A program made the position numbers and the translations under genes. The notes below the pieces were generated by a model. The model was not told the DNA's origin and did no database searches. It saw only the letters and a program-made list of their open reading frames with translations. This document shows positions 24,059-48,426 of a stretch of 64,000 nucleotides of DNA, piece after piece. The first letter of the stretch is position 1. Every line of letters begins with the position of its first letter. Origin of the DNA: Methylosinus sp. LW4 (GTDB lineage Bacteria > Pseudomonadota > Alphaproteobacteria > Rhizobiales > Beijerinckiaceae); NCBI RefSeq assembly GCF_000379125.1, contig NZ_KB900626.1, positions 3,420,667 to 3,484,666 of the forward strand. Reading direction: 5' to 3'.

Positions 24059-25033
24059 ATGAGTTTCACTTTGATCGAGCAGGCGACGCCGCGTCTCCAT
24101 CGCTCCGAGCTGGCCGTTCCGGGCTCCGCCCCCGGCATGTTCGAGAAGGCCGCGACCTCCAAGTCCGACCAGGTCTTCCTCGACCTCGAGGACGCCGTGG
24201 CGCCGGACGACAAGGAGCAGGCGCGCAAGAACATCATCCAGGGCCTCAATGAGATCGATTGGGGCAATAAGACGATGACGCTGCGCATCAACGGCCTCGA
24301 CACGCATTACGCCTATCGCGATGTGGTCGACGTCGTCGAGAACTGCCCGCGTCTCGACGTGATCCTCATTCCGAAGGTCGGCGTTCCGCAGGACGTCTAC
24401 GCCATCGACATGCTGGTCACGCAGATCGAGAGCTACAAGAAGCGCACCAAGCGCATCGGCTTCGAGCTGCTGATCGAGACCGCGCTCGGCATGGCCAATG
24501 TCGAGGCGATCGCTCAGGCTTCGAAGCGCAATGAGGCGCTCTCCTTCGGCGTCGCCGATTACGCCGCCTCCACCCGCGCCCGCACCACCGTCATCGGCGG
24601 CGTGAACCCGGATTACGGCGTTCTCTCGGACAAGGACGCCGAGGGCAATCGCCAGTATTTCTGGGCCGACCAGTGGCATGCGGCGCAGACGCGCTTCCTC
24701 GTCGCCGCGCGCGCCTATGGCCTGCGTCCGATCGACGGTCCCTTCGGCGACTTCGGCGATCCCGATGGCTATATCGCCGCCGCCAAGCGCGCCGCGGTTC
24801 TCGGCTTCGAGGGCAAGTGGGCGATCCATCCCTCGCAGATCGATCTGGCCAATCAGGTCTTCACCCCCTCCGAGGCGGAAGTGAAGAAGGCCCGCCGCAT
24901 TCTCGAGGCGATGGAGCAGGCGGCGAAGGAAGGTCGCGGCGCGGTGTCCCTCGACGGCCGCCTGATCGACATCGCCAGCATCCGCATGGCCCAGGCGCTG
25001 ATCGACAAGGCGGACCAGATCGGCGCTGCGTAA
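24059..25033 (+). CDS. mclA: L-malyl-CoA/beta-methylmalyl-CoA lyase
   Basis: Cleaves malyl-CoA to acetyl-CoA and glyoxylate, closing the serine cycle. 324 residues, HpcH/HpaI-citrate lyase fold: HRSELAVPGSAPGMFEKA, the Mg-ligand segment FLDLEDAVAPDDK, FELLIETALGM, and KWAIHPSQIDLAN near the C-terminus. Start ATG 24059 with GGGAAAGGGAG upstream, 27 bases after ppc. Directly after the stop begins the inverted-repeat element that separates it from gck. Confidence 0.95.
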   Translation: MSFTLIEQATPRLHRSELAVPGSAPGMFEKAATSKSDQVFLDLEDAVAPDDKEQARKNIIQGLNEIDWGNKTMTLRINGLDTHYAYRDVVDVVENCPRLDVILIPKVGVPQDVYAIDMLVTQIESYKKRTKRIGFELLIETALGMANVEAIAQASKRNEALSFGVADYAASTRARTTVIGGVNPDYGVLSDKDAEGNRQYFWADQWHAAQTRFLVAARAYGLRPIDGPFGDFGDPDGYIAAAKRAAVLGFEGKWAIHPSQIDLANQVFTPSEAEVKKARRILEAMEQAAKEGRGAVSLDGRLIDIASIRMAQALIDKADQIGAA

Positions 25034-25054
25034 CAGCAATCGTTGGGCGCGCAT

Positions 25055-25540
25055 CCTTCTCCCACTCGTGGGAGAAGGTGGCCCCGCGAAGCGGGGTCGG
25101 ATGAGGGTCCTCGCATGCCGACGCGGGTCTCGAAGTCCAAAACCGCATTCGCTCGACGCTTGCGGCGCGAGATGACGAACGCGGAGGAAATCCTCTGGCG
25201 TTCGTTACGCAATTCTGGGCTCGACGGTCTGAAATTCCGGCGGCAAGTCCCGGTCGGGAATTACGTCGCGGATTTTCTCTGCGTCGAACTCCGGCTCATC
25301 GTGGAGCTGGATGGCCGTCCGCATGAAAGTGAAGATCAACGCCGCCATGACGCGATTCGGGATCGCTGGCTGCGTGAGCATGGCTATCATGTCCTTCGCC
25401 TAGACAATGACCTCGTCATCGGCGGTGGCAATATCCCGCTGGAGCGGATTCGGGAGGCTGTCAGGACGATCGCAAATCGTCGCGGACCCTCATCCGACCC
25501 GACTTCGTCGGGCCACCTTCTCCCACGAGTGGGAGAAGGG
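25055..25540. mobile_element. Inverted double-hairpin element carrying a DUF559 gene
   Basis: A unit bounded by two inverted copies of a roughly 56-base sequence: 25055-25110 and 25484-25540. Each end contains an 11-base-pair hairpin (CCTTCTCCCAC / GTGGGAGAAGG) and a second hairpin (CCCCGC-GAA-GCGGGG on the left, CCCGACTTCGTCGGG on the right), followed by the shared inner sequence TCGGATGAGGGTCC. The DUF559 gene fills the inside: its ATG comes directly after the left copy and its last codons are made of the right copy. The whole unit sits between mclA and gck. No target-site duplication was resolved. Confidence 0.7.
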
Positions 25541-25558
25541 AGAAGACGAAGACCGTAG
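25115..25558 (+). CDS. DUF559 endonuclease-like protein
   Basis: Predicted 147-residue nuclease-fold protein of the DUF559 family, related to the very-short-patch-repair endonuclease fold. Visible core: RREMTNAEEILWRSLRNSGL, GLKFRRQVPVGNYVADFLC, the acidic active-site strand LIVELDGRPHE, and REHGYHVLRLDND. The last 25 residues (from about RRGPSSDP) are encoded by the right-hand inverted repeat, so the C-terminus is shaped by the element. Start ATG 25115 follows the left repeat with GAGGG upstream. Function is unknown; its position within inverted repeats suggests the nuclease and the repeats belong together. Confidence 0.75.
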   Translation: MPTRVSKSKTAFARRLRREMTNAEEILWRSLRNSGLDGLKFRRQVPVGNYVADFLCVELRLIVELDGRPHESEDQRRHDAIRDRWLREHGYHVLRLDNDLVIGGGNIPLERIREAVRTIANRRGPSSDPTSSGHLLPRVGEGRRRRP

Positions 25559-25567
25559 CGCTCTCTT

Positions 25568-25746
25568 CCTTCTCCCGCAGGGCGGGAGAAGGTGGCCCCG
25601 CGAAGCGGGGTCGGATGAGGGCCAGCGAAGAGAACCGGATTCCGTTGGAAACTCTTCGCGAGGCGGATAGAACGATCGCGAAGCGGCGAGGACCCTCATC
25701 CGACCCGACTTCGTCGGGCCGCCTTCTCCCACGAGTGGGAGAAGGG
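25568..25746. mobile_element. Deletion derivative of the DUF559 element
   Basis: Second pair of the same inverted double-hairpin ends (25568-25623 and 25690-25746) 28 bases after the first unit. Only about 65 bases lie between them, and these still encode the final codons of a DUF559 gene (see 25636-25704). It looks like an internally deleted, MITE-like version of the neighbouring unit. Confidence 0.65.
25636..25704 (+). pseudogene. Remnant of a second DUF559 gene (last codons only)
   Basis: Translated in frame this reads RIPLETLREADRTIAKRRG then PSSD, against NIPLERIREAVRTIANRRG then PSSD at the end of the intact DUF559 protein at 25115-25558. Roughly 23 codons are preserved with several substitutions, while the first 120 or so codons are missing. 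It therefore derives from a related but not identical copy. Confidence 0.65.
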
Positions 25747-25765
25747 AGAACACCGAGGCTTAGGA

Positions 25766-27043
25766 ATGTCTGACGACTATCGCACGCTTCTCCGCGCCAT
25801 GTTCGACGCCGCTGTCGGCGCGGCGCATCCGTCCGTCTGCCTGCCGGCCTTCCTCGAGAAGATCGCGCCGCCCAAAGGCCGCACCATTGTCGTCGGCGCG
25901 GGCAAGGCGGCGGCCTCCATGGCCGCGGCGGTCGAAGCGCATTGGCCGCATCCGATCGAGGGCCTCGTCGTCACCCGTTACGAGCATGGCGCTCCCACCT
26001 CCAAGATCGAGGTGATCGAGGCCTCGCATCCGGTGCCGGACGCCGCCGGCCGCGCCGCCGCCGGCCGCATATTGCAAAAGGTGCAGGGCCTCACCGAGGA
26101 CGATCTCGTGCTCGCGCTGATTTCCGGCGGCGGCTCGGCGCTGATGGCGCTGCCGGCCGATGGCGTGACGCTGGAAGAAAAGCAGGCCGTCAACAAGGCG
26201 CTGCTGAAGAGCGGCGCGACCATTTCCGAGATGAATTGCGTCCGCAAGCATCTCTCGGCCATCAAGGGCGGACGCCTCGCCCGCGCCGCGGCGCCGGCCA
26301 AGGTCGTCGCGCTGATGATCTCCGACGTGCCGAACGACGATCTCTCCGTCATCGCCTCCGGCCCCACAGTGCCGGACCCGACGACGCGCGAGGACGCGCT
26401 CGCCGTCATCGCCAAATATAAGATCGACGCGCCCGCCGCCGTGCTCGCCTATCTGGCGACCGACGCCTGCGAGACGCCCAAGCCCGGCGACAAGATTTTC
26501 GATCGCGTCGAGAATATTCTCATCGCGACGCCGCAAGGCTCGCTGGACGCGGCCGCCGCAGTGGCCAGCAAGGCCGGCTTCACGCCGCTCATCCTCGGCG
26601 ATCTCGAGGGCGAGTCGCGTGACGTCGCGCTGGTCCACGCGGGCGTCGCGCGCCAGATCGCGCGCCATGCGCAGCCGATCGCGCCGCCCGTCGCCATCAT
26701 CTCCGGCGGCGAGACCACCGTCACCGTGCGCGGCAACGGCAAGGGCGGCCGCGACGCCGAGTTCCTGCTGGCGCTGACGCTGGCGCTCGAGGGCTTCGGC
26801 GGAATCTCCGCCATCGCCTGCGACACGGACGGAATCGACGGCAGCGAGGACAACGCCGGCGCGATCATGACCGCCGACAGCTTCGCGCGGGCGGCGGCGC
26901 AGGGCGTCGATCTCAAGGCGCTCTTCGCCAATAACGACGCCTATACCGCCTTCGAGAAGCTCGGCGATCTCCTCGTCACCGGCCCGACGCGCACCAATGT
27001 GAACGACTTCCGCGTCATTCTCGTGCCCGGCCGGGCGAGCTGA
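25766..27043 (+). CDS. gck: Glycerate 2-kinase
   Basis: Phosphorylates D-glycerate to 2-phosphoglycerate, the step after hydroxypyruvate reductase in the serine cycle. 425 residues of the MOFRL (type II) glycerate kinase family: IVVGAGKAAASMAAAVE near the N-terminus, LALISGGGSALMALPADGVT, and the C-terminal SGGETTVTVRGNGKGGRDAE. It lies in the same direction as the serine-cycle genes but is separated from mclA by about 730 bases of repeat elements, so it may depend on its own promoter or on read-through. Confidence 0.94.
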   Translation: MSDDYRTLLRAMFDAAVGAAHPSVCLPAFLEKIAPPKGRTIVVGAGKAAASMAAAVEAHWPHPIEGLVVTRYEHGAPTSKIEVIEASHPVPDAAGRAAAGRILQKVQGLTEDDLVLALISGGGSALMALPADGVTLEEKQAVNKALLKSGATISEMNCVRKHLSAIKGGRLARAAAPAKVVALMISDVPNDDLSVIASGPTVPDPTTREDALAVIAKYKIDAPAAVLAYLATDACETPKPGDKIFDRVENILIATPQGSLDAAAAVASKAGFTPLILGDLEGESRDVALVHAGVARQIARHAQPIAPPVAIISGGETTVTVRGNGKGGRDAEFLLALTLALEGFGGISAIACDTDGIDGSEDNAGAIMTADSFARAAAQGVDLKALFANNDAYTAFEKLGDLLVTGPTRTNVNDFRVILVPGRAS

Positions 27044-47760: not shown

Positions 47761-48426
47761 TCATGAAGGTTGCGCGTCGCCTCTGCCGCTTCCCTCTCCC
47801 GCGCGAGCGGGGGAGGGTGAGGGAGGGGGCTCGACGCCCAGCGCCTGCAATTGCGCGCGCTCTTCCGCTGTGAGCGCGGGGGCGGCGCGGCGATTGCGGC
47901 GCGTGGCCGCGAAGATCGCCCAGACGCCGCCGATCAGCGCCAGCGCGGGGGCCGCCCACAGCAGCAGCGTCTCTCGTTTCACCGGCGGGCGCAGCAGCAC
48001 GAAATCGCCGTAGCGCGCCACCACATAATCGCGCACCTCGGCGTCGCTCGCGCCGTCCTTCAGCCGCTCGCGCACGATGACGCGCAGGTCCTTGGCGAGC
48101 GGCGCGTCGGAATCGTCGATCGATTGATTCTGGCAGACGAGGCAGCGCAATTCGCTGGCGATGGCGCGCGCGCGGGCCTCGAGCTTGGGATCGGCGAGCT
48201 TTTCGGAAGGCTCGACGGCGAGAACTGGAGACAGAAGCGCGACGCTGAGCGCGAGTGACAAAAGAAAGGGCGTTCCCCTCTCCCGCTCGCGGGAGAGGGT
48301 GGCTCGACGAAGTCGAGTCGGGTGAGGGTCCGCGCCGAAACCCTCATCCGACCTCGCTTCGCGAGGCCACCTTCTCCCGCGCGCGGGAGAAGGAAGAACG
48401 GAGAGATTCCGCGACATCCGCATCAC
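47761..48426 (-). CDS. ccmH: Cytochrome c maturation protein CcmH with repeat-derived N-terminus
   Basis: CcmH is a membrane-anchored thiol oxidoreductase of the cytochrome c haem-ligation machinery. The functional part has RCLVCQNQSIDDSDAPLAKD with the redox Cys95/Cys98, then a three-helix domain and a C-terminal membrane helix (LLLWAAPALALIGGVWAIF). Its ATG overlaps the ccmF stop (ATGA). Between residues 10 or so and 51 the reading frame passes in frame through an inverted double-hairpin repeat (48277-48393). This splits what looks like an ordinary signal peptide (MRMSRNLSVL joined to LLSLALSVALL). The C-terminal tail is also low-complexity. An internal TTG start after the repeat is conceivable. 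Confidence 0.85.
   Translation of the reverse strand: MMRMSRNLSVLPSPARGRRWPREARSDEGFGADPHPTRLRRATLSRERERGTPFLLSLALSVALLSPVLAVEPSEKLADPKLEARARAIASELRCLVCQNQSIDDSDAPLAKDLRVIVRERLKDGASDAEVRDYVVARYGDFVLLRPPVKRETLLLWAAPALALIGGVWAIFAATRRNRRAAPALTAEERAQLQALGVEPPPSPSPARAGEGSGRGDAQPS
48277..48393. mobile_element. Empty inverted double-hairpin element inside ccmH
   Basis: Two inverted ends of the same family as those around the DUF559 gene: 48277-48331 and 48340-48393, separated by only about 8 bases, with no cargo. Each end again has the two-hairpin layout (CCTCTCCCGC / GCGGGAGAGG, then CTCGACGAAGTCGAG; right end CTCGCTTCGCGAG, then CTTCTCCCGC / GCGGGAGAAG) and the shared GTGAGGGTCC or CCCTCATCCGAC core. 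It keeps the ccmH frame open. Confidence 0.7.

Follow-up and report, generated by a model that had tools for sequence, protein, structure and literature searches.

Two described systems come close to the one reported here. The REP-associated tyrosine transposases (RAYTs) are flanked by inverted repetitive extragenic palindromic (REP) sequences, co-evolve with them and track their abundance (PMC2817692). Intrastrand triplex motifs (TM, or TMECO in Escherichia coli) with the end grammar described below occur in more than 260 genomes; the E. coli copies are partly inverted pairs and unstable, and no mobility gene was reported around them (PMC4666352). Here we describe a DUF559 (PF04480) gene enclosed by two inverted hairpin ends in a stretch of 64,000 nucleotides from Methylosinus sp. 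LW4 (contig NZ_KB900626.1, positions 3,420,667 to 3,484,666; hereafter the window). We consider it probable, at roughly 0.6, that DUF559 and its flanking ends make up a two-part mobile-repeat system, analogous to RAYT and REP or REPIN (REP doublet forming a hairpin) and built on an unrelated enzyme.

The DUF559 unit of the window

The features of the window concerned are as follows.

25054..25107, forward strand: left end, with outer hairpin CCTTCTCCC/GGGAGAAGG, inner hairpin CCCCGC/GCGGGG and a third-strand-like block GGATGAGGG
25115..25558, forward strand: DUF559 gene, 147 amino acids from its ATG, domain at about 25136-25459 (Pfam, fold prediction)
25487..25540, reverse strand: right end, an inverted copy of the left end; its inner hairpin CCCGAC/GTCGGG is a fully paired variant
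25567..25621, forward strand: left end of a second, gutted unit
25622..25692, forward strand: interior of the gutted unit, 71 bp, holding a remnant of the DUF559 3' codons
25693..25746, reverse strand: right end of the gutted unit
48275..48394, no strand assigned: further short unit, an inward pair of one AGAGG-type and one AGAAG-type end

The inverted ends, the hairpins and the gutted sibling around the window DUF559 gene are real. The arms of the DUF559 unit (25055-25113 and 25481-25539) are 92% complementary, the left arm of the first unit and the right arm of the second (25055-25114 and 25686-25745) likewise 92%, and the end pattern occurred five times in the window and not once in 100 shuffles. 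Each window end has the same order, outer hairpin CCTTCTCCC/GGGAGAAGG, inner hairpin and then GGATGAGGG. The ORF (open reading frame) matched Pfam DUF559 with E 1.1e-34 over residues 32-139 (profile 2-107 of 109), which places it in the family. Its ATG at 25115 lies 7 bases past the left end, and the frame crosses the right end to stop at 25558, so that the initial annotation was right in placing the start directly behind one inverted hairpin end and the C-terminus in the other. Because the start follows the left end directly and leaves little promoter room, the gene may rely on read-through.

The second unit had been described as the same ends with only the last DUF559 codons, and this agrees with our comparison: it shares 115 nt with the first at 84%, comprising about 20 DUF559 codons (translations compared by eye) and the end. 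No Pfam match is left in its ORF. The interior aligned to the DUF559 stretch with a score of 15.5, compared with a maximum of 10.5 in 20 shuffles. In the region 24059-27043, DUF559 is co-directional with an HpcH/HpaI-family gene (24059-25033) and a MOFRL-family gene (25766-27043).

Association of DUF559 with inverted ends

DUF559 loci were compared in the Methylosinus genome itself, the family, a set of named species and the phylum. The named loci were the best 80 of 543 confirmed stretches found by one peptide pattern, the family and phylum loci were the best-scoring ones, and L046, L052 and L056 were dropped as short contigs. The flank score came from aligning the 300-base left flank to the reverse-complemented right flank, with a cut-off of 20. 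It was reached at 87 of 132 DUF559 loci (own genome 4/4, family 19/26, named species 51/75, phylum 13/27). Left out of the 132 were L069, L087 and L091, with too little flank, and L067 and L102, with runs of N; the named count is 52/77 with the latter two in. Among the same named loci, none of 822 other ORFs and none of 632 random intervals reached the cut-off.

Run on three 400-kb tiles, an end-grammar detector found 23, 20 and 25 ends; the reversed tiles gave none, and the shuffled ones 2, 0 and 1. At 115 of 135 DUF559 loci (L067 and L102 left out) an end lay within 350 bp, compared with 39 of 825 control ORFs. Ends on both sides within that distance were found at 70/135 and 1/825, and an inward pair at 49/135 (median distances to the domain, 32 and 29 bp) and 0/825. 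The initial annotation would have been refuted if DUF559 genes in relatives usually lacked such ends, and neither the flank score (87/132) nor the detector (115/135) refuted it. The layout of the window gene and of the 49 loci with inward pairs is that of RAYT/REPIN, namely a gene between two inverted repeats with dispersed copies.

The ends enclose little other cargo. In 2.26 Mb, composed of the named loci and the tiles, there were 72 inward neighbouring pairs at most 1500 bp apart, 39 with less than 200 bp inside and 33 with more, and DUF559 lay inside 32 of the 33 pairs holding at least 200 bp. Since all of this DNA was chosen around DUF559, with the tiles centred on the window locus, the telling figure is that only one long pair lacked DUF559; three of the tiles' four long pairs are the window locus and its orthologues. 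In 35 of 52 inward-flanked genes the DUF559 frame stops inside (8) or beyond (27) the right end.

Loci scoring at least 20 included ones from alpha-, beta- and gammaproteobacteria, Desulfobacteraceae, Chloroflexi and Gastranaerophilales, and scores were below 20 at the DUF559 loci of Spirochaetes (10), Chitinophagales (9) and Ignavibacteriae (17). Three of eight loci from plasmid records (L243, L248 and L249) reached the cut-off, including Deinococcus at 22.0 and the cyanobacterium Pseudanabaena at 55.5. Of the other plasmid loci, L247 scored 9, and the detector called an inward pair there in which one end overlaps the 3' part of the gene; the ends at L245 and L246 are one-sided, and L244 has none. 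Two plasmid copies of DUF559 stand inside operons, pnt of Sphingomonas and hpa of Deinococcus. The eighth plasmid locus, L301 of Neisseria, scored 10 and carries, by eye, similar motifs on both sides in one direction.

Repeat copies in the Methylosinus genome

Genomes with DUF559 tend to hold dispersed ends, which are often inverted pairs around a short spacer or around DUF559. In the Methylosinus genome (G000) the window end pattern has 59 copies, 40 of which form 20 inward pairs, and 0 when read backwards. The inner hairpin varies and its pairing is kept: the stem has at least 4 pairs in 34 of 35 distinct end contexts (the window and the loci fetched for the first 30 genome places of the pattern), with 19 different sequences. 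Within 14 nt outside the outer hairpin of AGAAG-type ends, GCGCG or CGCGC was found in 17 of 33 flanks (background 413/3000), and the same enrichment was found in another genome of the family, G037 (26/32 flanks, background 163/1600). It is either a further part of the end or a target preference, and the outermost extent of the end is uncertain.

The genome encodes four single-domain DUF559 proteins and one long DUF559 protein. All four single-domain genes have repeats on both sides, and their end types differ: AGAAG/GGATGAGGG in the window, AGAGG/GGGTGAGGG at two genes in two subtypes, and GGGAGGG/GGGGTGGGG at the fourth. This last gene adjoins whole units and is not directly between inward ends (flank match 94 direct and 43 inverted). 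Fifteen distinct short units of the window end type were examined in the genome; their interiors were alike in 0 of 105 pairs, and one unit, the window sibling, resembles DUF559 clearly above shuffles. No known RNA family was found at the Rfam gathering score. A known anti-phage system was rejected, as only a weak DpdF stretch was found (E 0.0027).

Gene clade and end type

Left and right inward ends were of the same class in 44 of 62 genes, compared with a shuffled mean of 10.7 and maximum of 20 (same-genus loci included). On the DUF559 tree the arm/block type changed 34 times over 111 loci (shuffled 63.7 +/- 2.4), 32 times over 92 loci without same-genus rows (54.0 +/- 2.4) and 23 times over the 54 loci of the named set alone (30.9 +/- 1.6), with relatedness and base composition only partly controlled. 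Over 130 distinct arm/block pairs the third block matched the mirror image of its own purine arm with a mean score of 8.62, compared with 6.94 +/- 0.13 and a maximum of 7.40 in shuffles, the detector itself requiring a G-rich block. Examples are GGGAGAAGG with GGATGAGGG and GGGGGAAGG with GGATGGGGG. The third G-rich block thus co-varies as the mirror image of the hairpin arm, as the purine third strand of an intrastrand triplex would need.

In the tests on whole genomes, single-domain DUF559 was taken at E <1e-15 and weaker multi-domain matches counted as without. Among 60 family genomes, AGAAG-type ends were found in 25 of 37 with DUF559 and 2 of 23 without (p 1e-5; Spearman 0.68), and among those of at least 3.5 Mb in 23/33 and 2/11 (p 0.0045). 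The TMECO pattern was found in 25 of 46 phylum genomes with DUF559 and 11 of 154 without (200 genomes, p 2e-11). Repeat abundance follows gene presence and the gene and repeat co-evolve, with relatedness of the genomes only partly controlled and exceptions both ways.

Relation to triplex motifs and E. coli ycjD

The ends have the triplex-motif layout of pyrimidine arm, loop, purine arm and mirror purine block on the same strand. In TM/TMECO this reads CCCTCNCCC, loop, GGGNGAGGG and then GGGNGAGGG, with partly inverted pairs and a presence in many bacteria, and the AGAGG/GTGAG ends of our analysis fit this scheme. The E. coli repeat boxC appears to be the same repeat as TM/TMECO, for which PIT was the earlier name. 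The window ends differ: they are of an AGAAG variant and carry a second hairpin. Used as a pattern, the published E. coli consensus did not match them and hit the Methylosinus genome once. DUF559 genes lie between the ends here, whereas the work on the triplex motifs, in which neither "DUF" nor "nuclease" occurs, names no cognate gene (PMC4666352). In that work triplex formation of TMECO was shown in vitro.

The E. coli protein YcjD matched DUF559 with 1.4e-49, although the E. coli control of our genome profile search gave no PF04480 match. In strain K-12, ycjD is located at 1351407-1351760, and copy 9 of the 23 listed TMECO copies, at 1351239-1351204, lies about 170 bp from it (Table 1, PMC4666352). 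The 3' end of ycjD overlaps what appears to be a decayed second motif; the hairpin on the other side of the gene is of a different kind and is no end of this type. Of 5426 E. coli genomes, 3362 contained 80% or more of the ycjD region. In other E. coli strains eefRABCD is reported at the place of ycjD (PMC12817139), and therefore no clean empty site for ycjD is available.

Presence and absence of units

DUF559 units vary in presence between species of the genus, which is the variation that the initial annotation had called for between strains. Of 10 genus genomes, 8 have the DUF559 unit in the mclA-gck gap, 2 have one at ribA and 3 have one at lepA. By eye, the mclA-gck unit carries a frameshift in G042 and an internal deletion in G256. 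Inheritance of the window copy has been largely vertical. At the ribA site of G255, G256 and G042 a single outer hairpin remains, and G255 has a single outer hairpin at the place of the 48275-48394 unit, its left arm resembling one end and its right arm the other (all by eye). As each end is palindromic, the two ends are also direct repeats, and simple deletion explains such single-hairpin scars.

One short unit of G000, of another end type and with outward-facing ends, has a near-exact empty site in G255, without clear duplication. A tile comparison with G252 gave a difference of more than 200 bp at tile position 161280 that looks like a change between GTCACGA repeats, inexact at the ends; the other differences seen between tiles are replacements or decay. 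In G257, two DUF559 genes that are related (support 88/85) and share an end type stand on different contigs; in G259, a DUF559 member of the lepA group (support 90/97) is found about 20 kb away from lepA. As to empty sites elsewhere, all seven Azospirillum plasmid records covering most of the locus have the unit, no listed Sinorhizobium record has both flanks without the unit, and the relatives of the Sphingomonas pnt operon that lack the unit are distant.

A fairly uniform set resembling REPINs or miniature inverted-repeat transposable elements (MITEs) exists in G037. There, 15 of 17 short inward pairs have an interior of 53 or 54 bp (the others 79 and 59), and with all 17 listed, the interiors were alike in 85 of 136 comparisons. 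The end string at the two DUF559 genes of G037 has 6 further exact copies in that genome, and no place listed for G000, G011, G051 or G052 carries it. The shared interior is unlike the DUF559 unit of G037 itself (scores 9.0 and 8.0). Set against the 0/105 of the Methylosinus genome, these interiors make whole-unit spread likely in G037, and old and decayed in Methylosinus. The two window units had been taken for an autonomous element and its MITE; in this form the reading was not supported, since 8 of 10 genus genomes have the window unit in the same gap, the 15 short units examined of its own genome have unrelated interiors, and the proposed search for empty sites in relatives gave no target duplication.

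Several other structures were seen at these places. In the mclA-gck gap of G257 (L181) there is a different inverted unit type, CCCTCTCCC..GGGGGAGGG, without DUF559, so that the gap seems repeatedly used. At lepA in G257 (L271) a diverged copy of the lepA 3' end lies beyond the DUF559 unit, which thus stands between two lepA copies of about 30-55 bp. At ribA in G254 (L255) the repeat-like CGTCATTGCGAGCGCAGCGAAGC... stands between CTCTCCC and GGGAGGGAG, where other species have a DUF559 unit or a single hairpin. One end at L173 (G042, mclA-gck gap) and one at L320:780-960 (G037) have an enlarged inner hairpin containing a long nested palindrome, which looks like an insertion of palindromic DNA into the hairpin tip.

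Protein fold and relatives

The AlphaFold2 model of the window DUF559 had a mean predicted local distance difference test (pLDDT) score of 90.9. The best solved structural match was the DUF559-like NGO0050 of Neisseria (3hrl), followed by Toxoplasma mitoribosomal proteins, I-Bth0305I and PvuRts1I, with Vsr weaker. The homing endonuclease I-Bth0305I, one of the relatives of DUF559 with known activity, was matched with a Foldseek probability of 1.00 and template modelling scores of 0.62/0.68, and only weakly by profile (E 3e-4). E57, D59, G60, H63 and D72 are invariant in 55 aligned DUF559 sequences. YcjD has been placed in the PD-(D/E)XK superfamily and finds Vsr by profile (PMC1189080). The literature search, with preprints mostly outside its reach, returned no title linking DUF559 to repeats, and the match for "PF04480" was work on giant viruses.

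DUF559 is like the EDxHD homing endonuclease I-Bth0305I in fold and by the weak profile match. It differs in being about 105 amino acids long without an added DNA-binding region, and in lying between inverted ends rather than in an intron.

Alternative explanations

That the ends are ordinary terminators or common intergenic hairpins, flanking DUF559 by chance, is barely credible. They are indeed G+C-rich hairpins and mostly intergenic where inspected, but none of the control ORFs or random intervals reached the flank score, the backwards controls gave 0 copies, and PIT/TMECO motifs are described as lacking promoter or terminator activity (PMC4666352, citing earlier work). On the flank-score and detector controls, chance flanking was rejected. 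A RAYT-type Y1 (HUH) transposase as the mover of the repeats, with DUF559 incidental, is also very improbable. The paired, inverted, palindromic layout is that of REPINs (PMC3116915), but the Methylosinus genome with its 59 copies gave no Pfam Y1_Tnp match, and over the 60 family genomes AGAAG-type ends occurred in 5 of 10 with Y1_Tnp and 22 of 50 without (p 0.74); RAYT as mover was rejected on these two grounds. The system resembles RAYT/REPIN in organisation, with a gene between inverted palindromic ends, dispersed short units, co-variation of gene and ends and repeats that follow gene presence, and it fails RAYT membership on the enzyme, which is a Vsr-fold nuclease here and a HUH tyrosine transposase (IS200/IS605-related Y1) there. 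The end here is a hairpin with a mirror-image G-rich block, often with a second hairpin, whereas the REP is a GTAG-/CGTC-tagged palindrome (PMC3733652). The RAYT/REP-like pairing with an unrelated protein family, proposed in the initial annotation, is supported.

DUF559 might instead be a Vsr-like mismatch-repair endonuclease for deaminated 5-methylcytosine, cargo of or neighbour to repeats moved otherwise. Vsr is among the weaker fold matches and of the same fold class, and Caulobacter VsrA itself contains DUF559 (PMC12907096). We regard this as quite improbable, because Vsr ranks below the solved DUF559 protein and I-Bth0305I, the end type follows the DUF559 clade, the ends enclose hardly any other cargo, and the only other mover tested, Y1_Tnp, was not found in the Methylosinus genome. 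The repair role proposed for VsrA does not explain the ends; at the DUF559 locus of another Caulobacter (L068) inverted ends are found, with a score of 31. DUF559 could also be a host nuclease that restrains the repeats, cutting or resolving hairpins or triplexes at stalled forks; the copies adjoining its gene would regulate it, and the repeats would spread by replication slippage and gene conversion and not through DUF559. This fits the units that keep their place across species, the short units with unrelated interiors examined in the Methylosinus genome, and the TMECO loci linked to instability and to deletions leaving a hairpin (PMC4666352). By itself, however, it does not say why the gene has inverted ends on either side, why other cargo is nearly absent, why the four DUF559 genes of one genome differ in end type or why units of G037 share 53-bp interiors, and we consider it unlikely.

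Several observations weigh against a mobile-repeat system driven by DUF559. No transposition was seen and no target duplication was defined in the compared genomes, and both the window unit and the Azospirillum unit occupy the same position in different species. There was no end within 350 bp at 20 of 135 DUF559 loci; ends were one-sided at 45, and two ends were not both inward-facing at 21. Ends occur without DUF559 in G051 (31 copies) and in 11 of 36 TMECO-bearing genomes, among them G195 with 130 TMECO hits and no listed DUF559 match. Conversely, AGAAG-type ends are missing from 12 of 37 genomes with DUF559 and TMECO hits from 21 of 46, though other end types may exist in both sets. A stable triplex was not supported by in vivo footprinting (PMC4666352), and a mismatch-repair-like role is indicated for the DUF559-containing VsrA (PMC12907096). 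In the DUF559/I-Bth0305I profile alignment E57 and D72 are the same residue, while D59 is opposite N and H63 opposite no H.

Proposed mechanism and significance

Within a DUF559-based mobile-repeat system, the most likely course is a nick by DUF559 at the folded end, after which host repair copies or removes the unit. Pairing, co-variation, the scarcity of other cargo and presence/absence variation are shown; recognition, nicking and copying are inferred. DUF559 would recognise the hairpin or triplex end in single-stranded DNA, such as that of the lagging strand, and nick it there; host replication and recombination would then copy the unit into the broken site, or remove it. Host replication and recombination are invoked because we know of no strand-transfer chemistry for a small Vsr-fold nuclease alone. 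Short units would be non-autonomous products, and single outer hairpins the scars of deletion between two ends.

A more specific form, to which we give a little less than even odds, casts DUF559 as the nuclease dedicated to mobilising the intrastrand-triplex repeats of bacteria (TMECO/PIT-like), with traces extending from proteobacteria to cyanobacteria, Deinococcus and Chloroflexi. It would recognise the folded triplex end and act by nick-and-copy without a transposase or recombinase of its own, and YcjD of E. coli would be a fading relic.

With this finding, a very common family of bacterial repeats, the spread of which was left open when it was surveyed (PMC4666352), gains a candidate partner gene. 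The finding also gives a testable role to DUF559, a family without a known function to which E. coli YcjD and the solved 3hrl protein belong. If the nuclease does spread the repeats, two unrelated enzymes would each have given rise to systems like RAYT/REPIN, and non-B DNA would serve as a signal for recognition and not be an accident.
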